From positions 2,232,001 through 2,296,000 of the forward strand of contig NZ_CP107254.1 in the NCBI RefSeq assembly GCF_029229925.1: DNA of 64,000 nucleotides. The letters are read 5' to 3'. Under the pieces are notes generated by a model. The model worked only from the letters and a program-made list of their open reading frames with translations, did no database searches and was not told the origin of the DNA. The position numbers and the translations under genes were made by a program. Within the stretch, counting starts at the first letter, position 1, and each line of letters starts with the position of its first letter. The DNA comes from Halorhabdus sp. BNX81. Its GTDB lineage: Archaea > Halobacteriota > Halobacteria > Halobacteriales > Haloarculaceae. Below are positions 15,324 through 63,857 of this stretch, piece after piece.

Positions 15324-17345
15324 CTACGCGCTGTCGAGTTCGTGGACCGTCACGTCCTCGAAGCGGGCTTCGGTCGTCAGGTCCTCAGAGTGGCTACAGA
15401 CGGCAAGCCCCACGTAGTAGGGGGCGTCGAGTTCGATCGGCAACTGATCGAGTGGTTGCCACTCCTTGCCGTCCGTCGAGAACGATAACGTCACACCCCG
15501 CTCGTCCACCACGAGCTGATACCACTGGAAGGCATCGTAGGGCTCCTCGTACTGGGTACTCTCGGCGTTGGCGCCGGTACTGGTCCGCCAGAGCGTCTCG
15601 CTTCCGTAGTCACGGGTCGCCCCGATAAACGCGAGGGCATCGTCGTGGCCCAGCCCGTCACGGACCATCAGGCCGGCTTTGCTGTACTCGTGGACCCCCT
15701 CGAGGTCAGCCAGGCGGCCCTGGATGCGAACGGGCTCGGACGTCCTCGCGTGGACGAAATGGAACTCGTCGATATCCTGCCAGATATCCCGACCGTCGCC
15801 GACGACGGTCCAGACATCGGTTGGAGCATCGTACTCCGCCTTCCCGGGAAGGGAGACATCCCCGATGTCCTCGTTGGTCGTGAGCGAGATGGATGCGCCC
15901 GGCGTTGTCGTCGACGGTTCGATGATCGGACAGTCGGTGATCTCGAAGCGTGCACCACCCGCCTCGCTCTCGGTGACGTCCAACTCCCATCCCTGCTGTG
16001 CGACTGTCTCACTGACGATCGTGAGACCAGTCCCGCTCCCCTCCTCGGCCGTGGTGTAGCCCTCTTCGAAGATACGGTCGCGCTCCTCGGACGGGATGCC
16101 GGGGCCGTCATCAGCCACGAAGAACCCACGCCCCATCGTGCCGACCCGAACGGTCACCTCGGGACCGGCGTGATCGACAGCGTTTTTCAGCAGGTTTTCG
16201 ACGAGCGGCCGGACGGTCTCGGTCTCGGCGACCACTTCTGTGCCGTCGGCCATGTCGATTTCGACCGTCGCCGAGTCCGGACTGTCGAGTTGCCAGACAC
16301 TCTCGACGAGCGAGGGGAGTTCGGTCGTCGAGACACCGATGTCGAGTGCGTCGAGCACTTCCTCGGAGAAGGAGCTGTTGTCTCGATCGCCCCGCGAGAG
16401 CGAGCTCAGGTCGTCGATGATCTCACCGACGCGATCGGTAGCACGCTCGATCCGGTCGAGGGCTTCGGTCTCGCCCTCGCGGGCACGTTCCAGGGCGCCG
16501 ACGATGATCTGCAGCGGGGTCCGAAGATCGTGTGAGACGTAACTCGCAAACTTGTCGAACCGGCGGCGCTCTTCCTCGAACCGTTTCTTGTACTGCATCC
16601 GTTTGGTGACGTCCTTGGCGTACCCAACCAGGCCGACGATCTCGCCGTTTTCCCGCCACGGGATCTTCGTCGACTCCGACCAGTAATCCCCCCCGGTCCC
16701 ACTGAACTTTTCTAGCTTGTCGCGGATCGGCTCCCCCGTCTCGACAACGCGAACATCGTCGGCAAGCGCCGCCTCGGAAACCTCTCGCTGGTTGAAGATT
16801 TCCGGATCGGTCTTTCCCCTCGCCTCCTCCGGGTCGACCGTATACGGCACGTCGGCAAATCGGACATACCGTCCGTGGGTGTCCTTGGCGAACATCGACA
16901 TCTTGCCTTCCGCGAGCAACGTCCGGAGAATGCTGCTGTTTGCTGCCTCGTTACGACGTCGCTCGTAGGTAGCGAGCGCGTCCTCGACTGTCTCACGAAG
17001 GGCGTCCTCACCGACCTCGATCGGGGTAAGTCGACAGCCACAGCGTTGGCTGACTGCAGCGGCAAGGGACTCATCGATGCCAGCGTAGACGACGATCGGC
17101 AAAACATCGTCGACGGCCCGTACAGCGTCGTAGAGTTCGACAAACGTCGACGCCTCGGCATCGAGTGCAAGGACGCAGCCGGCATCATCGCGAGCCGCAA
17201 GCGTCGACTCGATCTCGGATAGTCCATCCACCTTGACGACATCGTCCACACCCGCCCCAGCGAGTGCTGATCGGGCAGCATCGAGTTCGGTAGATGATCC
17301 ACCCACGGTCAGCACCGTCGTCGGATCTGTAAGGAGACAACTCAT
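15324..17345 (-). CDS. Soluble PAS histidine kinase with C-terminal lectin-like (DUF1349/LamG-type) domain
   Basis: 673 residues from the ATG at 17345 (MSCLLTDPTT). Residues 1-130 resemble a degenerate receiver; 135-250 a PAS domain ending GLVGYAKDVTKRM; H272 lies in SHDLRTPL; N-box ENLLKNAVDHA about 383; G1 DDGPGIP about 412; G2 GSGTGL about 436. Residues about 494-670 form an extra domain, with IWQDIDEFHFVHA, GRLADLEGVHEYSKAGLMVRD, WYQLVVDERGVTLSFSTDGKEW and YYVGLAVCSHS. That pattern belongs to a carbohydrate-binding-like beta-sandwich family normally found in secreted proteins. No membrane helix or signal peptide is evident, so the fusion should be cytosolic. TATTATTTA lies about 35 bases upstream. 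Confidence 0.88.
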   Translation of the reverse strand: MSCLLTDPTTVLTVGGSSTELDAARSALAGAGVDDVVKVDGLSEIESTLAARDDAGCVLALDAEASTFVELYDAVRAVDDVLPIVVYAGIDESLAAAVSQRCGCRLTPIEVGEDALRETVEDALATYERRRNEAANSSILRTLLAEGKMSMFAKDTHGRYVRFADVPYTVDPEEARGKTDPEIFNQREVSEAALADDVRVVETGEPIRDKLEKFSGTGGDYWSESTKIPWRENGEIVGLVGYAKDVTKRMQYKKRFEEERRRFDKFASYVSHDLRTPLQIIVGALERAREGETEALDRIERATDRVGEIIDDLSSLSRGDRDNSSFSEEVLDALDIGVSTTELPSLVESVWQLDSPDSATVEIDMADGTEVVAETETVRPLVENLLKNAVDHAGPEVTVRVGTMGRGFFVADDGPGIPSEERDRIFEEGYTTAEEGSGTGLTIVSETVAQQGWELDVTESEAGGARFEITDCPIIEPSTTTPGASISLTTNEDIGDVSLPGKAEYDAPTDVWTVVGDGRDIWQDIDEFHFVHARTSEPVRIQGRLADLEGVHEYSKAGLMVRDGLGHDDALAFIGATRDYGSETLWRTSTGANAESTQYEEPYDAFQWYQLVVDERGVTLSFSTDGKEWQPLDQLPIELDAPYYVGLAVCSHSEDLTTEARFEDVTVHELDSA

Positions 17346-17525: not shown

Positions 17526-18533
17526 ATGAACGATCTACTCCGCCGGGCGGCTCGCGGGGAGCGCACCGAGCGACCCCCGGTCTGGCTGATGCGACAGGCC
17601 GGTCGCCACCTCCCCGAGTATCGGGAGGTTCGTAAAGAATACGACTTCCTCGAAGCGGTCACCACACCGGAGATTGCCGCCAAGATTACACTCCAGCCAT
17701 GGGATCGATACCGTCCCGACGGGGTGGTGATGTTCTCGGACATCCTGACGATCCTCGAACCACTCGGGTTCGACTATCACATCGAATCGGGGACGGGTCC
17801 GGTCGTCGAATCACCCATCACCGACCCGGCTGACGTCCCGGAAACCTACGACGTGATCGAATCGACGCTTTCGTACGTCGGCGAGTTGCTCGACCGGCTC
17901 GATACGCGGGTCGGCAACGAAACCGGACTTATCGGCTTTGCCGGCGGTCCATTCACCCTCGCGTCATACGCCATTGCCGGCCATCCGACCCGGAATCACT
18001 ATCCAGTCCGGCAGTTCAAGGCTCGTCATCCCGAGGCCTTCGCGGACCTTCTCTCGGTGTTTGCCGACGCCGTTCGGGAGTTTCTCCAGTACCAAATCGA
18101 CCACGGCGCGGACGTCGTCCAGCTGTTTGACACCTACGCCGGCGTGTTGCCACCGGCGGCCTATCAGGCGTTCATCCAACCGCTTCATCGCGAGATCCTG
18201 ACAGACATCGATGCCCCGACAATCCTCTTTGTCCGAAACATGGGCGGCCGTCTCGACCAGCTGGCGGCGACGGGCGCGGATGTGGTCAGCCTCGACTGGA
18301 CGGTCGAGATGGCAACTGCTCGCGAACAGTTGGGAGATCGTCCTGTGCAGGGAAACCTCGATCCGTCCGTCCTCTTCGCCGGTCCGGAAACCGTCCGCGA
18401 GCGAACGCGTGAGGTGATCGAAGCGGCCGGGGATCAGGGCCACATTCTCAATCTCGGCCACGGCGTCCACCAGGACACACCGATCGAGAGCGTCGAGGCG
18501 TTCGTCGAGACGGCCAAATCGATCGAGCGGTAA
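17526..18533 (+). CDS. hemE: Uroporphyrinogen decarboxylase
   Basis: 335 residues, normal HemE length. PPVWLMRQAGRHLPEYRE carries the substrate-binding Arg motif; KITLQPWDRYRPDGVVMFSDIL, GFAGGPFTLASY, VVQLFDTYAGVLPP and NLDPSVLFAG are conserved. It decarboxylates uroporphyrinogen III to coproporphyrinogen III. With the ferrochelatase gene at 20570 it suggests a coproporphyrin route to haem, though the oxidase and HemQ-like gene are not in the window. Divergent from the histidine kinase gene. The two haem genes are split by an unrelated divergent pair. Confidence 0.97.
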   Translation: MNDLLRRAARGERTERPPVWLMRQAGRHLPEYREVRKEYDFLEAVTTPEIAAKITLQPWDRYRPDGVVMFSDILTILEPLGFDYHIESGTGPVVESPITDPADVPETYDVIESTLSYVGELLDRLDTRVGNETGLIGFAGGPFTLASYAIAGHPTRNHYPVRQFKARHPEAFADLLSVFADAVREFLQYQIDHGADVVQLFDTYAGVLPPAAYQAFIQPLHREILTDIDAPTILFVRNMGGRLDQLAATGADVVSLDWTVEMATAREQLGDRPVQGNLDPSVLFAGPETVRERTREVIEAAGDQGHILNLGHGVHQDTPIESVEAFVETAKSIER

Positions 18534-18569: not shown

Positions 18570-19310
18570 CTAGGGGATTCGATCCACCGCCGATCGTAAA
18601 TCCGCCGGTTCCGACCACGGAAAACAACGGCCATGGAGTTCGAACAACCGGAACTCGTTCAGGTGAACCCAGCTGTAGGACGCAACGTCCGAGTCACGTT
18701 GTTCGATGCTGTCGTTGATCTCATCAAGTGAGATAGCAATTCCGTTCGATCGAGCGTTTTCGACGACCGTTTCTAGTTCCGCTTGCACGCCATCATCGTC
18801 GAGGTCGGCGTTACCGGCAATCCGGTTAGCTGCCGCAAATGCGTCCGTCTTTGTTTCCAGTCGACGGTCGGTCATCCAGGCGTAGTCACGCGGGAACACG
18901 TAGGTATCCTCGAAGAACGGCGTCTCGCTGATCTTTCCGAGTTCAGTCACCTCGCCGCCGGCGTCCTGTTCGTAGACAGCTGCGATGGCATCGGCATAGG
19001 AGGCGATGATGTAAAACCGAATACGGAACACCGGCAGTCGTTCACTATCGATCTCACGCAAATCACCGAGAACAAACGCGTACGAACCGATTCGCTTGTT
19101 CAATTCGTTTTCGATCAAACGAAGCCGACGGATATACGGCGATCGAAAGCTGCCAAGAACGAGATACGAGGTTTCGGGCGTCTGCAGATGCGGAACTTCC
19201 TCGTTGGCGAACCCGAGGATTGCAGCCGTCTCCTCGGGTTCGAGTTCGATCCCATGGAGTGCCTCGTCGATGTGAGATTTGAGCTCGGCGACATCCGGCG
19301 GGGCTGGCAT
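18570..19310 (-). CDS. Haloarchaeal protein with predicted nucleotide-hydrolase-like (NDT/TIR-like) fold
   Basis: 246 residues. After an N-terminal helical part (SHIDEALHGIELEPEE), the core begins SYLVLGSFRSPYIRRL and includes RFYIIASYADAIAAVYEQ and GGEVTELGKIS. The scheme of a first-strand LGSF, a later strand ending in AIAAVYE, and a Glu-containing Gly-rich segment is like nucleoside deoxyribosyltransferase or TIR-type domains, though divergent. That assignment is inference; haloarchaeal proteins of this look are catalogued only as uncharacterised (DUF7509-like). A TATA element (TTTATGAT, near 19338) lies 28 bases upstream, so the message is leaderless. Divergent from the winged-helix gene at 19433, with which it shares a short motif. 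Confidence 0.6.
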   Translation of the reverse strand: MPAPPDVAELKSHIDEALHGIELEPEETAAILGFANEEVPHLQTPETSYLVLGSFRSPYIRRLRLIENELNKRIGSYAFVLGDLREIDSERLPVFRIRFYIIASYADAIAAVYEQDAGGEVTELGKISETPFFEDTYVFPRDYAWMTDRRLETKTDAFAAANRIAGNADLDDDGVQAELETVVENARSNGIAISLDEINDSIEQRDSDVASYSWVHLNEFRLFELHGRCFPWSEPADLRSAVDRIP

Positions 19311-19432: not shown

Positions 19433-20551
19433 ATGAGTGACGCCACGAGGACGAACGCGAATGCTCCGTTCGAGGAACAGCGGGAGATGTACGAATTACT
19501 CTCCCAGGAGACGCGCCACCTCGTGTTGCAGTACGTCCTCGCACATCCCGATCATCTGCCGTCGCTGGCCGAACTCGCGTATCTGATACCGAAGAACAAG
19601 GCCGCGATCCGCGATCAAATCCATCGGTTGTGTGAGGAGGAGATCCTCTCGCGATACGACCACCCACCCAACGAGGATTCGCGCGATCTGCCCTCGCAAT
19701 TCTACGGGCTGACGACAGAGGGCGTCGAGATCCTCGAACAGTACAACTATCTCCGTGGACTGGGGATGGCCCGGGCGCTGTACGACAATACACGCCTTTC
19801 CGAAAGGGCTCGGCGACACCGAGATGCACCGCGACCGGAGTTGCCCGAAGCTGTCGACCAGGCACTCCGAATCGACTCCACTGGGAAGTCCGGGGATTTC
19901 GAGCGACTGGAAGCGTACATCCGGGATCGGAACGCCCGTATGCCCAGCGTTGACGATCAGGTCGAGGTCGCGACGGCCCTTGCCCGGGACGATATTGGAC
20001 CGGATCACGACGGGATCAAACGGGCCGGTATCGTCGAGCAGTTCGATATCGATCTGGATTTCCAACCGAATACGGTTCTGAAAAACCTCCTCGACATCGA
20101 CATTCTGGAGGAACAGCGACCGCCTGGTCCGGACATTTTTGCGATCAGCGAACGGAAAGACGAGATTGTCAACGGGAACGTAACAGGGGAGGCGAAAGAA
20201 AGCCTCGAGGCACTCATCGAGCACATCGACGACGAACTTCACGGCGTCGAACTCGACGACGGGGCAGCGGAGTGGTCTGGTCGTGACACGGACTCGAGTG
20301 CACCGTCTGTAGCTCTCGCCGACGGCGCAGGACGGACTGTCCGAAGTATCCTCGCCACCACGTTCAACATCGACCCCGAACGCGTCGTCGAACACCTCCG
20401 TTCCGGCAATCCGGTGGAACGACTTAACACGGCCGTCGAGGCCATCGAAAGCTCGGAAGCAGTAACGAAGTCCGAAGAGTACGGACGCATCGTCTTCGTT
20501 TATCCGACCTATCGATATCGACTCAGTCAAACGGCCATGGAGCTACTGTAA
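19433..20551 (+). CDS. Winged-helix (ArsR-like) regulator-type protein
   Basis: 372 residues. Residues about 18-100 form a winged helix: LLSQETRHLVLQYVLAHP, SLAELAYLIPKNKAAIRDQIHRLCEEEIL, and FYGLTTEGVEIL. A second helical region follows (RDDIGPDHDGIKRAGIVEQ and so on) which may be another HTH. The segment EHIDDELHGVELDD, about residue 265, resembles the N-terminal SHIDEALHGIELEP of the divergent neighbour. Likely a transcription factor acting on the shared promoter region. Ligand unknown. Confidence 0.75.
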   Translation: MSDATRTNANAPFEEQREMYELLSQETRHLVLQYVLAHPDHLPSLAELAYLIPKNKAAIRDQIHRLCEEEILSRYDHPPNEDSRDLPSQFYGLTTEGVEILEQYNYLRGLGMARALYDNTRLSERARRHRDAPRPELPEAVDQALRIDSTGKSGDFERLEAYIRDRNARMPSVDDQVEVATALARDDIGPDHDGIKRAGIVEQFDIDLDFQPNTVLKNLLDIDILEEQRPPGPDIFAISERKDEIVNGNVTGEAKESLEALIEHIDDELHGVELDDGAAEWSGRDTDSSAPSVALADGAGRTVRSILATTFNIDPERVVEHLRSGNPVERLNTAVEAIESSEAVTKSEEYGRIVFVYPTYRYRLSQTAMELL

Positions 20552-20569: not shown

Positions 20570-21616
20570 TCAGGAATCTAGTGGCGCGTTCAGACACATC
20601 GTTCCCGGTTCGTCCCGACACTGACACTGCCGAAGCTGGTAGACCGCAGGATCGAAATCAGCGATAAATGGTTCGACGAGATCCTCCAGCACGCCGACGA
20701 ACCGCTCGTCATCGTGCGGGATGGGGACACGGTGGAACTCCAAGCCCGCCTCCTCGGCTTCCTCCCGCAATTCCACGTCGAGTTCCGAGAGCGTCTCGCT
20801 CTGTTCGTGCATGAAGCTGATCGGCTCGACGACGACACGCTCGGCATCGGCCGTTTCGATGACGTCTTCGATCTCGGGTTCGGTCCACGGGATGCCCCGA
20901 TTCTCGTGGTTCTGATAGCCGAGTTCGTACTCGTCGATCCCGAGCAGCCCCGCAACGGTCTCGACGTATTCGGTGACGTAGATGTCGTAGCGACTGCCCT
21001 CTTCGAGATAGTGCTGTGGTGTGCCGTGGGCCGAGAACACGAGGGCCGTGTCGGGATCAGTCAGGTCGACGCCCCGCTCCTCGGCCAAGGCCTCAATCCG
21101 ATCGGCTCGCAGGCGTGGATAGTCAGGATGGCGATGCCACCCCGACAGTTCCTGGAGCGCGGCGAAGTCGCGCTCGTCGGCGGCCGCACGGAGTTCCTCG
21201 AGAGCGTCGACGGTCGTCGAGGGACCACACAGCGGATAGATCGGGAGCCCGATGATCCGGTCGTGGCCGTCGGCGATGGCACTGTCGAGCGCCTCGTCGA
21301 TGAACGGCTCGGTGAACTGCATCCCGATGTAGGTCTCGACCTCGCGGCCACGCTCGCGGAGTCGATCTTCCAGGGCCTGGGCCTGCTTGCGGGCCTGTTC
21401 GTTCAGCGGCGACCCGCCGATGGCCTCGTACTCCTCGATAAGCGGGCCGGCCCGGCGCTCGGCCAGTTCGCGGGAGCGCTCGCGTGCCTCGGCCTCGGTC
21501 GTATCGCCCTCGATCTCTCGGTTGTTGAAGAAGATGCGTTCGAGATACGAGACGACAGCCTCGCGTTCCGGCGTCGCTGGTTCGCCGAAGTTCAACAGCA
21601 GGATTCCGGTCGACAT
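20570..21616 (-). CDS. hemH: Ferrochelatase
   Basis: 348 residues from the ATG at 21616 (MSTGILLLNFGEPATPE). GILLLNFGEP, YIGMQFTEPFIDEAL, LPIYPLCGPSTT, LVFSAHGTPQHYL (with the metal-site His) and VVVEPISFMHEQSETL (with the catalytic-region Glu) identify a class I chelatase inserting Fe(II) into coproporphyrin or protoporphyrin. The C-terminus carries CQCRDEPGTMC, a Cys cluster that could bind a [2Fe-2S] centre as in some bacterial ferrochelatases; this is inference. The upstream in-frame extension was rejected because LLLNF should lie near the N-terminus. Confidence 0.93.
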   Translation of the reverse strand: MSTGILLLNFGEPATPEREAVVSYLERIFFNNREIEGDTTEAEARERSRELAERRAGPLIEEYEAIGGSPLNEQARKQAQALEDRLRERGREVETYIGMQFTEPFIDEALDSAIADGHDRIIGLPIYPLCGPSTTVDALEELRAAADERDFAALQELSGWHRHPDYPRLRADRIEALAEERGVDLTDPDTALVFSAHGTPQHYLEEGSRYDIYVTEYVETVAGLLGIDEYELGYQNHENRGIPWTEPEIEDVIETADAERVVVEPISFMHEQSETLSELDVELREEAEEAGLEFHRVPIPHDDERFVGVLEDLVEPFIADFDPAVYQLRQCQCRDEPGTMCLNAPLDS

Positions 21617-37131: not shown

Positions 37132-37758
37132 ATGGCTGAGACAATTACGATCACCCCGGACGAGAGAAAGCAGCTCACTACTGGAGACCCAAAGAAAGCT
37201 CCAAAATATACGTTTTTCGCCCTTAACAATGCGGTGAAATATTCATCTGCCAACCAGCGACCCACTGTCGGGAAAATCACTGAAATCTACGAAGAGTTTG
37301 AACAGGAACACCCAAACGGTGACTTCCAAGACTGGCGGAACTACTATTATAACCAGTATAACGGACGGCAACGGATTGATGATGCCACTGACAAGGCCTA
37401 CAATATGTTCCTCACAATCCGGGCCGCGATTGATGATATAGACCGTGAGGACATACGTGACTTCATCGAAGGATTAGTACTCAACGGTACGTACTCTAAT
37501 CAGAACGCGCGAGAGGCTGTAATTCAGAAGCTTCTTGAAAGCCGATCAGAAACCGAGCGGCTTTCACCAGATGAGGGCCCCGATGGATGCGAGCTTCAAT
37601 GGGGAGATAGGTACGTCTCCATTCAACCGGAGGAGATACGGTCAGAAACTTTGTTTGACCGCGAGGACGTGATCGTGTTTTACTTCTCGGAAAATGCGAG
37701 TGATAACGGCTTGAAGATAGACGTTAGTAAGTCGAATATGACGCTTGACGAGTTCTAG
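37132..37758 (+). CDS. MjaI-like type II restriction endonuclease homologue
   Basis: 208 residues from the ATG at 37132 (MAETITITPDERK). Regions resembling the MjaI family (which cuts CTAG): KYTFFALNNAVKYSSANQRPTVGKITE, DIRDFIEGLVLNGTYSNQNAREAVIQKLLE, then PDGCELQWGDRYVSIQPEE about residues 150-168. The last would be the PD-(D/E)xK-like core, with Gln165 where Lys is expected. No methyltransferase gene is adjacent. AT-rich compared with the host, leaderless from a TATA near 37105. A TTG 12 bases upstream is an alternative start. Family assignment rests on pattern recognition and needs a profile search. Confidence 0.65.
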   Translation: MAETITITPDERKQLTTGDPKKAPKYTFFALNNAVKYSSANQRPTVGKITEIYEEFEQEHPNGDFQDWRNYYYNQYNGRQRIDDATDKAYNMFLTIRAAIDDIDREDIRDFIEGLVLNGTYSNQNAREAVIQKLLESRSETERLSPDEGPDGCELQWGDRYVSIQPEEIRSETLFDREDVIVFYFSENASDNGLKIDVSKSNMTLDEF

Positions 37759-37761
37759 TGT

Positions 37762-39126
37762 TTATTTTAGGTTTAGCTCATATTCCTCACCGTCTCGGAC
37801 TTTACGGAGCAATTCTACTGCGGCATCCGAATATCTATGATTCGGTTCTTGTCGGTGGAAGGCAATATCCATGTGGTACTGGTTATCACTTTCTTTTATA
37901 TTTATGCCTCGTTCTTCCTCGATCTCGTTAATTAACTGGTTAGCATTGTGCCACGTGTCCCATCCAAGTTCATTCGCAACATCGGACAGTCTGTATCGAT
38001 ACAAGATATTGAAATCCATTGGATTATCAAGCGTGCTAACCCCGAATAAGGTCCCGAAGGATTCACCAGAGTTCGCAGCACGTTCAAGTGATTCGTAATT
38101 AATTTCAATTTCCTCACGGGGTGCTTTGGTTTTTATTATATCGTAGGTATTGGCCATCACTGTGCGAAGGAGTTTCAAATTGACTCCCTCGATATACCCA
38201 CCTTGGCCAAAGGCGTTGAATACCCAGTCGAATCGCTGAGACTGGATGTAATTCACGCGCATAGAATTACCGTCAATAGTCGGGATGCGTTTCTCCCGCT
38301 CAAAAGTATCGACGCCGGAGATATCCGGTTCCCAGTCAAGGAAGTAGATATTATCAATAAGGCCATCTTCTGGCGACAGTATTTCGTCAATATCAGACAA
38401 CAATCGGCGTACATTTTTGTCCCCAACGCTGTATCCAGCGATTAACACCGGATGCTCGGCAAAGTATGTGAGCAGTTTTGCTGAGAGGTATTTCTTTGTT
38501 TCAGTCCATTCATTGTAGTCGTCATTGGTCAAAATTAGACTCTCTGGTTCTGAAATACATCCGTGGATTTTCAATATTTCGCCGATGCTCTGGTAGTCTG
38601 ATCGTAGGATTTCTTCGCCAATGACGGGTTGGTAGTCCGGGAAGAGAACTTCGAGAAACGGATCATAGTTTGTGGTAATAATGGCATGTGGTTGGATTTG
38701 TTGAAGGAGTTTGATTTCTTCGCGGAGGTTATCGTCCTTGATCTCGTCGATTGATTCAGGAGTGAGTTCTTGGAAGTACTTGGAAATTTTATATTTAAGG
38801 TATATATCGCTGGGGTACTCACGGGAGCGAAGTTCATCTGGGAACTCATCTTTACCGTCTCCCCATGCCCAATCGTAGTAGTACTCTGAAAGAGTAGTAC
38901 CAATCTCAGGGTAAGTATCGCCGCGTTGTAGGTAATAATCGATAGAGTGAGGGACCTCAGGGCAGTCTTCAGCTGCGGTTTCAAGGAGTGATTCCCAACT
39001 GGGACCGTCAAAGTAGCGAATGGAAAGACCAGTCCCGATGAAAAGAATAGGTTGACATTTTAGCTCTTCAACCCGCTCCAAGACGTCTGTTTTCCGGTCT
39101 TCAATGTATTCCCCAAACTCCTTCAT
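37762..39126 (-). CDS. SIR2-family protein, probable NAD-dependent anti-phage effector
   Basis: 454 residues. The SIR2-like fold is marked by FIGTGLSIRYF (31-38 region, NAD-binding Gly), AIITTNYDPFLEV (151-155 TTNYD), ILKIHGC (His188) and VLIAGYSVGDKNV (231-236). About residues 300-454 form a C-terminal domain I cannot assign (ELGWDTWHNANQLINEIEEERGINIKESDN). This architecture is like SIR2 NADases in defence systems (Thoeris ThsA, DSR types) rather than deacylase sirtuins, which need a zinc module not seen here. Convergent with the restriction-like gene, 3 bases between stops. AT-rich. TATA (ATTATAAT) 27 bases upstream. Confidence 0.82.
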   Translation of the reverse strand: MKEFGEYIEDRKTDVLERVEELKCQPILFIGTGLSIRYFDGPSWESLLETAAEDCPEVPHSIDYYLQRGDTYPEIGTTLSEYYYDWAWGDGKDEFPDELRSREYPSDIYLKYKISKYFQELTPESIDEIKDDNLREEIKLLQQIQPHAIITTNYDPFLEVLFPDYQPVIGEEILRSDYQSIGEILKIHGCISEPESLILTNDDYNEWTETKKYLSAKLLTYFAEHPVLIAGYSVGDKNVRRLLSDIDEILSPEDGLIDNIYFLDWEPDISGVDTFEREKRIPTIDGNSMRVNYIQSQRFDWVFNAFGQGGYIEGVNLKLLRTVMANTYDIIKTKAPREEIEINYESLERAANSGESFGTLFGVSTLDNPMDFNILYRYRLSDVANELGWDTWHNANQLINEIEEERGINIKESDNQYHMDIAFHRQEPNHRYSDAAVELLRKVRDGEEYELNLK

Positions 39127-41166: not shown

Positions 41167-41826
41167 ATGCGAGACAGATTGATCACCGAACTTGGCGATC
41201 TTGCCCATTCCAGATTTCTCGTGTATCTCATGGGTCCTTACGAAGCGTTCGACATTGAGAGGGTGCTTCACAGCGACAAAATCTCCGAAGATCTCAAGCT
41301 GGATACGATCCCGGAATCCATCGATTTCGGGACGCTTGTTGGGTCTGAAGCTGATCTCGATCAAGACGAAGCCGTGCTGGATTTACTCTTAGAAGTCCGC
41401 GACCACCTCCGAACCGATCCAGGAGTGAATGCGTTTCTCGCAATCGATGTTGACGTGCCTCTCGAGGAGATGGACGCCGCAACGCAGAGCATTGAATTCG
41501 CTCTGGCAAGCAACGTAGTCGTCTACATTGTTCCGGAGATTGGAGATAACCTTGGGGTAGGAATCGAGGTCGGGTCCGTTCTCGAAGCCATCTTTCAAGA
41601 GCGAGAGAACAACACAGCAACGCAGCACGAAGAGCGAGTCCTCTTTGTCCATGAATCAGGTGTCCGTAGCGCGATGATCGCGTCTGTACGAGAACGGTGG
41701 GATGCCCGGATTTACGCGTATGATGATCGCGCAGACCTGGTCAAGCAAGTACGCCTTTTCGTTCGAGATATTGCCCGGCGGGAACAATATGGAGACCTGC
41801 CTCACTTGGAAGAAAATAGCGAGTGA
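41167..41826 (+). CDS. Haloarchaeal DUF7509-like protein, predicted nucleotide-hydrolase-like fold
   Basis: 219 residues. SRFLVYLMGPYEAF resembles the first strand and Gly-Pro loop of nucleoside deoxyribosyltransferases; QSIEFALASNVVVYIVPEIGDNLGVGIEVGSVLEAIF resembles the strand and Glu-containing segment that in that superfamily (and TIR-like relatives) attacks the N-glycosidic bond. Function is inference. Leaderless from a TATA in TTTATTTAAATA about 27 bases upstream. Divergent from the ArsR-like regulator, repeating the layout at 18570-20551. Lower GC than its neighbours. Confidence 0.65.
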   Translation: MRDRLITELGDLAHSRFLVYLMGPYEAFDIERVLHSDKISEDLKLDTIPESIDFGTLVGSEADLDQDEAVLDLLLEVRDHLRTDPGVNAFLAIDVDVPLEEMDAATQSIEFALASNVVVYIVPEIGDNLGVGIEVGSVLEAIFQERENNTATQHEERVLFVHESGVRSAMIASVRERWDARIYAYDDRADLVKQVRLFVRDIARREQYGDLPHLEENSE

Positions 41827-42879: not shown

Positions 42880-44118
42880 TCAGGCCGGATCGAACACCGT
42901 CTCGCCTTCGACCTTGTGCGCCTCGACCGCGTCGAGGTCGAGCGTCAGGCCAAGCCCGGGCTTCTCGGGGATCGCCATCGAACCGTCCTCGATGAGGCCG
43001 TCTTCCTCGACCAGGTCTGCCCACCAGCCGAGTTCGTAGGAGTGGTACTCGACGGCGAGTGCGTTCGGAATCGCCGCGCCGACCTGCGCGGAGGCCATGG
43101 TCGCGATCGGCGAGCCGACGTTGTGCATCGCGACGGGGATGTAGTAGGTGTCGGCCAGGTCGGCGATCTTCCGGGTTTCGCGCATCCCGCCGACGCGGGG
43201 GACGTCAGGTGCGATGATGTCGACGGCCTGCTCCTCGAGCAGGCGGCGCTGGCCGTGCTTGCGGTAGACGTTCTCGCCGACGGCGATCGGCGTCGTCGTC
43301 GACTGGGTGACGTTCTGCTGGACGTCGTGGTTCTCCGGCGGGACGGGATCTTCGAGCCACCAGACGTCATAGTCCTCGATCTCCTCGGCGAGGCGCTTGG
43401 CGCTGCCGCCGGTGTACGTCCAGTGGCAGTCGAAGGCGACCTCGGCGCGCTCGCCGACGCGTTCGGTCGTCGCCCGGACGATCTCGGCCTTGTGCTTGAT
43501 CTCGGGTTGGCTGAGGTGGCGGTTGGCCGAGTCCTTCTCGTGGCCGCTTGGCACGTCCAGATCGAATTTGATCGCGTCGTAGCCCAACTCCTCGACGACG
43601 CGCTCGGCCTCGTCGGCACAGGCCTGCGGGTCGGCCTCGTCTTCTGTGTGGAGATCGCAGTAGACCCGGACGTCGTCGCGGTACTTCCCGCCCAGGAGCT
43701 GATAGGCAGGGATATCCAGAATCTTCCCGGCGAGGTCATGTAAGGCGATTTCGATGCCAGAGATGGCATGGATCGTCACGCCGGCGATCGACCCTTCGCC
43801 GGACATTTTCTGTACCATGTGTTCGTACAGCCGATCGATGTCGAGCGGGTTCTCGCCGAGGATGAAGGGTTTCATTCGCTCGACGAGTTCGGGAACGGCC
43901 GCGCCCCAGTAGGCCTCGCCCGTCCCGACGATACCCGCGTCGGTGTAGACCCGCACGAGTGTCCAGGGGTAGTTGCCGTCGACCATCGTGGTCTGGACAT
44001 CGGTGATCTCGACGTCGCGCGGGCCGCGGTCGGCGGTGACGCCCATCGTCTCCGAAGAGAGGTCCCGCATCGTGTACTCGGCGTTCGGGTCGCTGAGCTG
44101 CGTGTAATCGATTGGCAT
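42880..44118 (-). CDS. gnaD: Sugar-acid dehydratase, mandelate-racemase/enolase superfamily (gluconate or xylonate dehydratase)
   Basis: 412 residues. N-terminal capping domain VEITDVQTTMVDGNYPWTLVRVYTDAGIVGTGE; barrel motifs ALKFDLDVPSG-like AIKFDLDVPSG with Lys, metal ligands in AFDCHWTYTG, WWLEDPVPPENHD and PIAVGENVYRKHG, and late AMHNVGSPI. The pattern matches haloarchaeal gluconate dehydratase of the semi-phosphorylative Entner-Doudoroff pathway; the xylonate dehydratase XacD is a close relative, so the sugar acid is uncertain. Divergent from an HtrA-like gene; KDG kinase and aldolase genes lie nearby. Confidence 0.85.
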   Translation of the reverse strand: MPIDYTQLSDPNAEYTMRDLSSETMGVTADRGPRDVEITDVQTTMVDGNYPWTLVRVYTDAGIVGTGEAYWGAAVPELVERMKPFILGENPLDIDRLYEHMVQKMSGEGSIAGVTIHAISGIEIALHDLAGKILDIPAYQLLGGKYRDDVRVYCDLHTEDEADPQACADEAERVVEELGYDAIKFDLDVPSGHEKDSANRHLSQPEIKHKAEIVRATTERVGERAEVAFDCHWTYTGGSAKRLAEEIEDYDVWWLEDPVPPENHDVQQNVTQSTTTPIAVGENVYRKHGQRRLLEEQAVDIIAPDVPRVGGMRETRKIADLADTYYIPVAMHNVGSPIATMASAQVGAAIPNALAVEYHSYELGWWADLVEEDGLIEDGSMAIPEKPGLGLTLDLDAVEAHKVEGETVFDPA

Positions 44119-45452: not shown

Positions 45453-46418
45453 TCACCGCGAGATTTCCTCGACGTCACCGTCGAGGATCGATTCGACCAT
45501 CTCGGGCCGGATCGTCGCGGCGTCGCCGCCGATCGTCCGCTTGAGCGCCGCGGTCGCCGCCGCCTGTTCGAGCGCGACCGGGATGGACTCCTCAGTCAGC
45601 CACGCCGCGAGGAACCCGCCGACGAAGGCGTCGCCGGTCCCGATCGCGTCGACCGTCTCGGTCTCGAACACCGGCTGGTGCGCGCTCCGTTCGCCGTCAA
45701 AGGCGAGCGCGCCCGCCTCGCCCGTCGTCACGATGACGAGGTCGAGGTCGTAGTCGGCGTGGAGGTCGGCGGCGACGGTCTCGGCGTCGCCGTCGTATTC
45801 GAGTACTGCCTCCGCATCGCGATGGGCGACGAACAGCACGTCGACGTCGGGGAGGAGATCGGTGAGCGTCTCCCGGGCCGATTCTGGGTCCCAGAGGTTC
45901 GACCGGTAGTTGACGTCGAAAACTGTCGTCGCCCCGGAATCCTTGGCCGTCGACAGGACCTCCTTGGTGGTCTCGACCAGCGTCTCCGAGAGTGCCGGCG
46001 TGATCCCGGAGACGTGGACGGCGTCGGCCTCGGTGAACGGGGCCGTGGGAAGTTCGTCGAACGTCGCCGTCGTGATCGACGAGCCGGCCCGGTCGTAGAT
46101 GACCTGCGAGCCGCGGGGGGCCGCGCCCGCTTCGAGGTAGTAGGTCCCGAGTCGGGCGTCGTCACTCTCGTCCCAGACGACGGCCGGGTCGACGTCGTGG
46201 GTCCGGTAGGCGGAGGTTACTTTCTCGCCGACGGGGGTCGCCGGGAGTTTCGAGACCCACGTCGCGTCGAGGCCCAGTCGCTGGGCGGCGACGGCGACGT
46301 TGCCCTCCGCGCCGCCGACGTGAACGTCGAGCGTGTCGGTGGTCTCGATCGGCTCTGCGGTCGGCGTCGCCAGTCGCAGGAGTGATTCCCCGAATGCGGT
46401 GAGTCGCGGCGGAGTCAT
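45453..46418 (-). CDS. kdgK: 2-keto-3-deoxygluconate kinase (PfkB family)
   Basis: 321 residues. TAFGESLLRLAT, DVHVGGAEGNVAVAAQRLGLDATWVSKL at the N-terminus and the C-terminal DAIGTGDAFVGGFLAAWL with the catalytic Asp are PfkB signatures; FDVNYRSNLW is typical of KDG kinases. It phosphorylates KDG to KDPG. The 3' end faces the HtrA gene. Could in principle act on another ketose, but the context of dehydratase and aldolase favours KDG. Confidence 0.88.
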   Translation of the reverse strand: MTPPRLTAFGESLLRLATPTAEPIETTDTLDVHVGGAEGNVAVAAQRLGLDATWVSKLPATPVGEKVTSAYRTHDVDPAVVWDESDDARLGTYYLEAGAAPRGSQVIYDRAGSSITTATFDELPTAPFTEADAVHVSGITPALSETLVETTKEVLSTAKDSGATTVFDVNYRSNLWDPESARETLTDLLPDVDVLFVAHRDAEAVLEYDGDAETVAADLHADYDLDLVIVTTGEAGALAFDGERSAHQPVFETETVDAIGTGDAFVGGFLAAWLTEESIPVALEQAAATAALKRTIGGDAATIRPEMVESILDGDVEEISR

Positions 46419-56327: not shown

Positions 56328-57407
56328 ATGGATCTCACGGAGCACGTTTCGGATTTCGCGCGCCGCGACTGGGAGCGTTACGACGGGGAAGAGACCGTCC
56401 GATTCGCGCTGATCGGGGCCGGCTGGTTCACCCGCGAGTGGGCGCTGCCCGGCATCGAGCGAGCCGACCACACCGAGGCGACGGTCGTGGTCGACGTCGA
56501 TCGCGAGCGGGCAGAGGGACTCGCCGCCGAGCACGGCCTGACCGCGCTCACCCCCGAAGCGTTCCACGACGGCGTCGCCGAGTCCGAATACGACGCCGTC
56601 TACGTCTGTACGCCGAACGCGACCCATCTGGAGTACGTCGAAACCGCGGCGGCGTTCGGCAAGGACGTGCTCTGTGAGAAACCGATGGAAGCCAGTGTCG
56701 ACCGGGCCGCCGAACTCGTCGAAGCAACTCGGGAAGCCGGCGTCTCGCTGATGGTCGGCTACCGGATGCACCTCGATCCGGTCGTCCGCCGCTCGAAGGA
56801 ACTCATCGAATCGGGCGCGATCGGCGACGTTGTGCAAGTCCACTCCAACATGTCCCAGCGGATGGTCGCCGAGTTGGAGGGTGACGCGAGCGACCAGTGG
56901 CGACTCGATCCCAACCTCGCGGGCGGCGGCGCGATGATGGACATCGGGATCTACCCGCTGAACACGACGCGATTCCTGCTCGACGCTGATCCGGTGGAAG
57001 TCTCAGCGGAAACGGGATCGACCCACGAGGCGTTCGCCGATGTCGAGGAGCGCGTCGCCGTCCGGGCGACGTTCGAGGGTGGCGTCCCTGTCGTCTTCAC
57101 CGCCAATCACAACGCCTACCACGACAGCTTCCTCCGGGTGACCGGGACGGCGGGCCAGGTCATCATCGATCCCGCCTATTTCGAGCGTGAGCCCCGCGAC
57201 ATGGAGGTCAGGCTCGACGGCGAGCGCCACGCCATCGACGTGACGGACGTCCACCAGCTCGAGGAGGAGTTCGCCTACTTCGCCGACTGCGTGCTTTCGG
57301 GTCGCGAGCCCGAACCCGACGGCGAGCACGGACTGGTGGACATGCGGGCGATCGAAGCGGTCTACGAATCGGCCGAGACGGGCGAGACGGTACGCGTCGA
57401 GACATAG
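56328..57407 (+). CDS. Gfo/Idh/MocA-family sugar dehydrogenase, probable D-xylose dehydrogenase
   Basis: 359 residues. VRFALIGAGWFTREWALPGIE is the Rossmann Gly motif; YDAVYVCTPNATHLEYVETAAAFGKDVLCEKPMEAS contains the conserved EKP; YRMHLDPVVRRSKELI and GGGAMMDIGIYPLNTTRFLLDADPV form the catalytic and dimer region. It closely follows the haloarchaeal xylose dehydrogenase (Gfo6) pattern, a NADP-dependent enzyme making xylonolactone; glucose is also possible. With the dehydratase at 42880 it suggests oxidative sugar degradation. Confidence 0.85.
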   Translation: MDLTEHVSDFARRDWERYDGEETVRFALIGAGWFTREWALPGIERADHTEATVVVDVDRERAEGLAAEHGLTALTPEAFHDGVAESEYDAVYVCTPNATHLEYVETAAAFGKDVLCEKPMEASVDRAAELVEATREAGVSLMVGYRMHLDPVVRRSKELIESGAIGDVVQVHSNMSQRMVAELEGDASDQWRLDPNLAGGGAMMDIGIYPLNTTRFLLDADPVEVSAETGSTHEAFADVEERVAVRATFEGGVPVVFTANHNAYHDSFLRVTGTAGQVIIDPAYFEREPRDMEVRLDGERHAIDVTDVHQLEEEFAYFADCVLSGREPEPDGEHGLVDMRAIEAVYESAETGETVRVET

Positions 57408-57531: not shown

Positions 57532-57816
57532 ATGGCAAAAACGGAGTCCCCACCCGAGAAGACGACGGTAAACATCCGGATGACGGAATCGTTTCTGGCG
57601 GATGTCGACACGACGTGGGAAGAACAGGGATTCAACAGCCGGAGCGAATTTATCCGGGCGGTGCTCCGTGACGCGCTCAAGCATCCGGAATTCAACCGTG
57701 CAGATCTGAAGGCGATGCTCACGAGCGAGGCAGAGATCCGCGAGGGACGCACCCACAGTAGCGACGAGGTGAAGGCCGAATACGGACTCGACGGGACAGC
57801 ACGCGACGATGAGTGA
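57532..57816 (+). CDS. Ribbon-helix-helix antitoxin
   Basis: 94 residues. TTVNIRMTESFLADVDTTWEEQGFNSRSEFIRAVLRDALKHP is an RHH (CopG/ParD) DNA-binding domain; the C-terminal part (AEIREGRTHSSDEVKAEYGL) should bind the toxin. Overlaps the next gene by 8 bases, so the pair is one operon. Such antitoxins normally repress their own promoter. Confidence 0.9.
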   Translation: MAKTESPPEKTTVNIRMTESFLADVDTTWEEQGFNSRSEFIRAVLRDALKHPEFNRADLKAMLTSEAEIREGRTHSSDEVKAEYGLDGTARDDE

Positions 57817-58090
57817 GTGGGACTGGGAACTTACCGACACGGCGCGACGTGATTTCGACGGACTCGACGAGCACGCACGGGACCGAATCGTCAGCAAACT
57901 CGACGAGATCGTTACTGACCAGTGGCGGGACCCGCCTGAATATCTCGAACCGCTCCACGGCGCACCCAACCAGAAGCTCCGGATCGGTCCGTTCCGTCTC
58001 GGCTGTCGTGCCGACCAGGCCGAAGGAGCCCTCTACGTTTTGCGGATCCGAAAGCGCGGTGGCGACGCCTACCGTAGTGACGACGATTGA
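57809..58090 (+). CDS. RelE/ParE-family toxin
   Basis: 93 residues. WELTDTARRDFDGLDEHARDRIVSKLDEIV and PPEYLEPLHGAPNQKLRIGPFRLGCRADQAEGALYVLRIRKRGGDAYR are typical of the RelE/ParE fold, with the Arg in KLRIGPFRLG and the C-terminal basic patch. Target (mRNA at the ribosome or gyrase) cannot be decided. Encoded directly after its antitoxin. Confidence 0.88.
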   Translation: MSEWDWELTDTARRDFDGLDEHARDRIVSKLDEIVTDQWRDPPEYLEPLHGAPNQKLRIGPFRLGCRADQAEGALYVLRIRKRGGDAYRSDDD

Positions 58091-62717: not shown

Positions 62718-63857
62718 ATGGGAAACACGCCAGTGGGCCATGAACGGGCCGAGCCGAGCGATGACGTGGCACCAGTCGCCCAGCGCCTCGTCGAGAGTAT
62801 CGACTCACATGCCATATTCATGTTAGACAGCGACGGTGCGATCACGGAATGGCCGCCACCGGCGACAGCAATGTACGGCTACGACGCGGAAAGGGTACTC
62901 GGCGAAGACGTGAGTAGCCTGTTCACTGACGGTGACGGGTCTGAAGCCGGCGATCCGCCGGACGGCTTCCTCGATGACGCGACCGAAGGGACCGTCGAGG
63001 TCGAGCACTGGCACGAACGCGCCGACGAATCCGTGTTCTGGGGAACGCTGACGCTATCGCCGCTTTCGGGCGACGACGAAGGGTTCGCAGCCATCAGTCA
63101 CGACGAGACGACGGCAAAGGAGTACGAGCGGATGCTCGAACGCCAGAACGACCGTCTCAAGGAGTTCACGGACATCCTCGCCCACGACCTCCGGAATCCC
63201 CTTTCTGTCATCGACGGAAACCTGGCACTCTACGAGGAGACCGGCGACGACGCCCACATCGAGACGATCAAGGAGACGACGGACCGGATGGCCCGCCTCG
63301 TCGAAGACTTGCTCCGGGTGGCCCGACAGGGGGATGTCGTCACCGACCCGGAACCGACCGACATCGGCGAAGTGGTCGAGAAGGCCAGACCGGTCGTCGA
63401 CACCACCGCCGGCGGGACCTTCGTCTATCACGAGGTCCCGACGGTGAGTGGCGACGCGGACAGGCTCTGTCAGCTGTTCGAGAACCTCTTCCGGAACGCC
63501 GTGGAACACAGTTCCACGAGCCCTGACTCGCAAGCTCGTCAGAACGCGGTCGAACACGGCTCGGCGAGCCCGGACACCCACACCGGAGGAGGAACACCGG
63601 GCAATAGCGGGACGGTGACGATCACCGTCGGACCGCTCGAAACCGGGTTCTACGTCGAGGACGACGGCCCCGGGATTCCGGACGAACAAAAAGAAGACGT
63701 CTTCGACCACGGGTTCACGACGAGTGGCGACGGCAGCGGCTACGGACTCTCGGTCGTCCGGACGATTGTCAACGCCCACGGGTGGGACATCCTGGTCACG
63801 GACAGCGACACCGGCGGTGCGCGCTTCGAGATCACCGGCATCGACTTTCTGGAGTGA
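62718..63857 (+). CDS. PAS-domain histidine kinase
   Basis: 379 residues from the ATG at 62718 (MGNTPVGHERAE). PAS domain about residues 27-140 (HAIFMLDSDGAITEWPPPATAMYGYDAERVLGED), H-box FTDILAHDLRNPLSVIDGNL with the phosphorylated His, N-box ENLFRNAVEHSS, G1 DDGPGIPDEQ and G2 GSGYGLSVV. Between N-box and G1 lies a duplicated piece: NAVEHSSTSPDSQARQ then NAVEHGSASPDTHTGGG. No membrane helix, so a cytosolic sensor. No adjacent response regulator. An upstream in-frame Met was rejected because of poor composition. Confidence 0.92.
   Translation: MGNTPVGHERAEPSDDVAPVAQRLVESIDSHAIFMLDSDGAITEWPPPATAMYGYDAERVLGEDVSSLFTDGDGSEAGDPPDGFLDDATEGTVEVEHWHERADESVFWGTLTLSPLSGDDEGFAAISHDETTAKEYERMLERQNDRLKEFTDILAHDLRNPLSVIDGNLALYEETGDDAHIETIKETTDRMARLVEDLLRVARQGDVVTDPEPTDIGEVVEKARPVVDTTAGGTFVYHEVPTVSGDADRLCQLFENLFRNAVEHSSTSPDSQARQNAVEHGSASPDTHTGGGTPGNSGTVTITVGPLETGFYVEDDGPGIPDEQKEDVFDHGFTTSGDGSGYGLSVVRTIVNAHGWDILVTDSDTGGARFEITGIDFLE

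Follow-up and report, generated by a model that had tools for sequence, protein, structure and literature searches.

Histidine kinases nearly always carry their sensors ahead of the catalytic core, and the gene at positions 15324..17345 of the window (here meaning the whole 64,000-nucleotide stretch of Halorhabdus sp. BNX81 DNA that was analysed) raises the question of what a lectin-like domain encoded behind the ATPase domain of such a kinase might do. The initial annotation had suggested that this module could sense intracellular sugars. The features of the gene, all on the minus strand, are as follows.

15324..17345 (-), whole gene, 673 aa: pseudo-receiver, PAS, HisKA, HATPase_c and DUF1349 domains
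16956..17345 (-), N-terminal receiver-like domain, residues 1-130, assigned from the model fold
16599..16892 (-), PAS_4 domain, residues 152-249, Pfam match above cut-off
16386..16553 (-), HisKA / DHp domain, residues 265-320, Pfam match above cut-off
16530-16532 (-), phospho-acceptor His272, within SHDLRTPLQ
15936..16217 (-), HATPase_c / CA domain, residues 377-470, Pfam match above cut-off
15870..15935 (-), linker, residues 471-492
15327..15869 (-), DUF1349 concanavalin-like beta-sandwich tail, residues 493-673
15597-15599 (-), E583, part of the kinase-tail signature
15441..15449 (-), kinase-tail signature D633-Q634-R635 (Leu at 635 in the window protein)

The reading frame runs from an ATG at 17345 to a stop at 15324 without internal stops. 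A TATA-like A/T-rich stretch, TATTATTTA, was read by eye about 30 nt 5' of the ATG, and scans for sigma-70 promoters and terminators came back empty, as expected because the host is an archaeon. The product is predicted from its H, N, G1 and G2 boxes to be a soluble histidine kinase, as had been proposed: SHDLRTPLQ, the N-box ENLLKNAVDH, DDGPGIP and GSGTGL are all intact, as they are in most members of the fusion family described below, the HisKA (50.4 bits) and HATPase_c (63.7 bits) scores are both above the Pfam cut-offs, and a pattern check detected no hydrophobic membrane-spanning run. Such runs were likewise absent from all 49 fusions, where the lone pattern match falls in a G-box. No RRxFL-type (twin-arginine) Tat motif is visible at the N-terminus, in agreement with the earlier statement that the protein lacks an export signal. 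For the N-terminal part of the protein the Pfam search gave no receiver match; in the full-length model, strands alternate with helices over residues 1-130, and the block has a pLDDT of about 82-88 from residue 11. The acidic pair of a receiver is missing from this domain, and a conserved phospho-Asp is absent across the family.

The tail itself matches Pfam DUF1349 (PF07081) over residues 506-669. The score is 31.3 bits for the whole protein, below the cut-off of 32.4, and 34.3 bits for the isolated tail, above it; all 19 of the family tails tested matched at E<=0.1. Searches of Pfam and NCBIfam retrieved no known kinase-associated domain in the tail. An AlphaFold2 model of the tail built from four sequences (pLDDT 86.7, pTM 0.88) is almost entirely beta, and its best structural match by Foldseek and VIA-align is 3mep (Z 20.2, rmsd 2.4, 166 aligned), followed by the yeast protein 3o12 (Z 20.0, rmsd 2.5, 170 aligned). 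Next come GH43 xylosidase C-terminal domains, at a Z of about 15-17, and CBM66, at about 15. A profile of the 19 family tails run against PDB sequences yielded 3o12 as its sole match (E 0.0018). Together, the Foldseek/VIA-align and PDB profile matches settle the fold of the modelled tail as that of DUF1349, and the beta-sandwich after the catalytic core that had been recognised from the sequence is borne out. Foldseek matches of the full-length model were kinases and were uninformative about the tail.

To place the fusion, the tail profile was searched against 391 genomes from the class, with matches in 62. Matches at or above about 149 bits are kinase fusions with one exception, an exported 1232-aa protein (L109) that scores 163 bits, and those examined at or below about 135 bits are non-fusion proteins. 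This gave 46 fusions in 24 of the 391 genomes; with one protein from an incomplete relative and two from Halosimplex salinum added, the survey comprises 49 haloarchaeal kinases. Full-length relatives of the window protein were found in several genera, and PAS, kinase and tail stand in identical order in all 49, nearly all of which also match the receiver-like domain. In two fusion kinases, L107 (G302) and L108 (G169), an insert of about 40-60 residues separates the HisKA and ATPase halves. The fusion is missing from two congeners of the window organism (G001 and G005), and the distribution is therefore patchy. In a sample of 295 genomes from the archaeal phylum, tail matches were confined to the same order, and none of the virus and plasmid relatives examined carries a kinase-DUF1349 fusion. 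An origin of the tail by frameshift or chimerism was considered and is ruled out by the single frame and the 49 collinear relatives.

A phylogeny of 82 kinase cores, of which 49 are fused and 33 tail-less, places all fused cores on one side of a branch with an SH-aLRT of 78 and no bootstrap, and a tree of 72 tails does the same for the fused tails with an SH-aLRT of 96, so that the fusion group is one change in the kinase tree and one in the tail tree. The two trees have most close groupings in common. This apparent single origin and co-inheritance would suit one fusion event followed by joint inheritance, the support for the kinase clade being moderate. The sampled tail-less kinases mostly stop within 16 residues after the ATPase domain (one extends 29 residues and another 97), and the tail is thus an addition.

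Among close orthologues, conservation of the tail (83-89% identity) is on a par with that of the kinase core (84-87%), whereas the receiver-like part reaches 52-62%; family-wide, mean identity is 52% for the CA domain, 40% for the tail and 26% for the receiver-like domain, which is the most rapidly evolving part. The linker measures 21-30 residues in 48 of 49 fusions, so the distance from tail to ATPase domain is nearly constant. Kinase tails also carry residues of their own: E583 is found in 39 of 44 live kinases, D633 in 42, Q634 in 37 and R635 in 35, as against 1 of 18 secreted domains for each of the first three and 0 of 18 for R635. The secreted and standalone DUF1349 relatives have a different motif, D520/W522/D526/H529, with D520 and D526 retained in 17 of 18 secreted and 5 of 5 standalone domains. 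Only 19 of 44 live kinases have Asp at position 520 and 11 of 44 at position 526, often with N instead, and by these residue counts the motif of the secreted relatives is half-decayed in kinase tails. With E583, D633, Q634 and R635 gained and D520 and D526 partly lost, the conserved surface was altered after the fusion, which would be easier to reconcile with a ligand or partner acquired anew, or with a contact surface for the kinase, than with a retained ancestral glycan site.

Five fusions have lost the phospho-acceptor His and the G1 Asp together, apparently in three losses, and have kept the tail: L131, the related trio L101, L102 and L132, and the first copy at L110. All five have D633. 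In four of these cases the dead gene is the first of two in tandem and lies about 55 to 119 bases upstream of an intact sister; two more tandem pairs, in L035 and L104, consist of two live kinases. For the dead trio, a rough dN/dS of 0.13-0.38 in the tail, from those pairs of short and close alignments for which it was computable, suggests that the tail may be under constraint. Loss of the His was seen in 5 of 49 fusions versus 0 of 33 tail-less kinases, a difference that is not significant (p=0.15). The dead members are unable to phosphorylate on their own, and what is kept is therefore the receiver-like, PAS or tail parts. We hypothesise that these proteins may act as regulatory partners.

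The explanation that we prefer, and to which we would give an even chance, is that the tail was recruited once from the haloarchaeal pool of DUF1349 domains and serves the cytoplasmic kinase as a second, C-terminal input; the module was probably recruited in one event. Joined to the CA domain through the short linker of near-fixed length, the tail would bind a cytoplasmic small molecule or protein and, through its attachment to the CA domain, would alter the ease with which that domain gains access to His272 of its own chain or of the dimer partner. The receiver-like and PAS domains would supply other inputs, the His-less sisters would regulate the adjacent active kinase as its partners, and the phosphate acceptor would be an unlinked response regulator. 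Since the model of the whole protein is poor (pTM 0.32), docking of the tail against the CA domain is offered as a proposal. We consider it doubtful that the family amounts to a new type of soluble two-component sensor whose sensing domain lies after the ATPase domain and acts on it directly, with the His-less sisters as ligand-binding regulatory partners of the active kinase encoded beside them.

Some of the same observations can be read differently. In GH43 beta-xylosidases, the beta-sandwich at the C-terminus is packed onto the catalytic domain and joins in oligomer contacts. The structural match of the tail to that domain, the short fixed linker, the new conserved polar signature with its loss of the ancestral motif, and the dead-live tandem pairs would all accord with a module for oligomerisation or stability that dimerises or packs on the kinase, holds the sisters together and senses nothing. 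HisKA, however, dimerises already, and we judge this alternative somewhat unlikely.

Our preferred reading of a second input leaves the nature of the ligand to be considered, and the relatives of the tail outside the kinases bear on the sugar proposal. Of 14 sampled non-kinase proteins with a tail-like domain, 13 have a Tat motif near the N-terminus, the sole other case being a 379-residue frame of uncertain start position. In haloarchaeal exported proteins DUF1349 often directly follows the Tat signal of a long secreted protein, and several plasmid relatives of these proteins are annotated as pectate lyase. The initial annotation had placed the family at the ends of secreted glycosidases; for the haloarchaeal module this placement is only partly right.

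The sugar-type genes of the window, which had been cited as fitting a sugar-sensing role, are these.

42880-44118, MR_MLE/enolase superfamily gene
45453-46418, PfkB kinase gene
56328-57407, GFO/IDH/MocA gene

They lie 25-40 kb from the kinase, past a cluster of secY and ribosomal-protein-like genes. Around the 49 fusions contexts are varied and no neighbour family recurs broadly, and linked sugar genes were seen in none of the lineages examined. The search for an operon partner through conserved neighbourhood was likewise set aside, as nothing recurs outside near relatives. In the window and two close relatives the kinase gene precedes adk, EMC3-like, cmk-like and truB-like genes, and the His-less fusion L131, from another genus, directly follows secY; other members share neither the adk-side nor the secY-side setting. 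The interval between secY and adk that holds the kinase also contains genes for uroporphyrinogen decarboxylase (17526-18533) and ferrochelatase (20570-21613), and between these hemE-like and ferrochelatase-like genes are two encoding proteins without a Pfam match (18570-19310 and 19433-20551).

A tail that senses intracellular sugars or glycans and controls sugar catabolism or polysaccharide-degrading enzymes would agree with the match of its fold to CBM66 and GH43 accessory domains, with the secreted and pectate lyase-annotated relatives, and with a weak co-occurrence with Tat-type DUF1349 proteins across the 391 genomes (7 of 24 genomes with fusions versus 38 of 367 without, Fisher p=0.013, kinship ignored). 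Against it stand the distance or absence of sugar genes and the partial loss of the D520/W522/D526/H529 motif; carbohydrate binding by the tail would be argued from fold similarity, and a shared fold shows no ligand. We regard this role as quite improbable, and sugar sensing as a possibility that the present analysis leaves unsupported. That the tail is a tolerated passenger without function, as the patchy occurrence might permit, is already disfavoured and highly improbable given its retention in 49 of 49 fusions, catalytically dead members included, with strong conservation of residues.

Several other features of the window were recorded. At 37132-39126 a gene for an MjaI-type restriction endonuclease (+) and a SIR2-like gene (-) meet end to end, the latter being a strong match (268 bits) to the PADLOC candidate PDC-S25 and a weak one to ThsA; third-position G+C at this locus is low (0.47-0.55), thus suggesting a foreign defence island. 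A complete DUF7509 protein (41167-41826, 295.6 bits) is found inside a low-GC3 stretch. Positions 57532-58090 hold a probable toxin-antitoxin pair, with a weak ribbon-helix-helix match followed by a ParE-type protein above cut-off. A second soluble PAS-HisKA-HATPase kinase, at 62718-63857, stops directly after its ATPase domain.

The window protein combines a soluble kinase of ordinary build with a C-terminal domain that is unusual, and its relatives form a long-lived family in which a conserved globular domain, of a fold known mainly from exported proteins, stands behind the catalytic core. The family thereby offers a natural system for C-terminal control of a histidine kinase, and its tandem pairs of one dead and one live kinase lend themselves readily to genetic testing. 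It also bears on what DUF1349, a domain of undefined function present from archaea to yeast, binds inside cells. The fusion had been called unusual, and no description of one was found in the literature searched, which misses most subscription journals.

A review puts archaeal kinases without membrane segments at 62% of the total (PMC6944256), and a census of two-component systems in archaea includes kinases with a receiver-PAS-HisKA-HATPase layout, the REC-HisK class, none of them characterised experimentally (Galperin et al. 2018, PMC5847659); the searchable text of that census does not name DUF1349 or lectin domains. The window protein resembles the REC-HisK class in having PAS, HisKA and HATPase domains and no membrane segment, and its N-terminal domain looks receiver-like in the model. 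It differs in that the class stops at HATPase, whereas the window protein adds about 190-200 residues past residue 470, and in that its receiver-like domain has no Pfam match, with no phospho-Asp conserved across the family. With CBM66 and the GH43 beta-xylosidase C-terminal domain the tail shares a concanavalin-like beta-sandwich (Z about 15-17), although the GH43_C2 profile (PF17851) is sub-threshold in the window protein (16.0 bits versus a cut-off of 22.7). The closest relatives of the tail by profile, kinases excepted, are the haloarchaeal Tat-exported DUF1349 proteins, which are exported and usually carry the domain near the N-terminus or repeated, whereas the window kinase has no Tat signal; they conserve the motif D-I-W...D-x-F-H, of which the kinases retain only part. 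The fold is common over the whole domain to yeast Ree1/YJL217W (3o12) and Erwinia ECA2234 (3mep), with Z of about 20 and a Pfam match, but those two proteins are DUF1349 alone, whereas the tail in the window is fused to a kinase and bears a family-specific signature.
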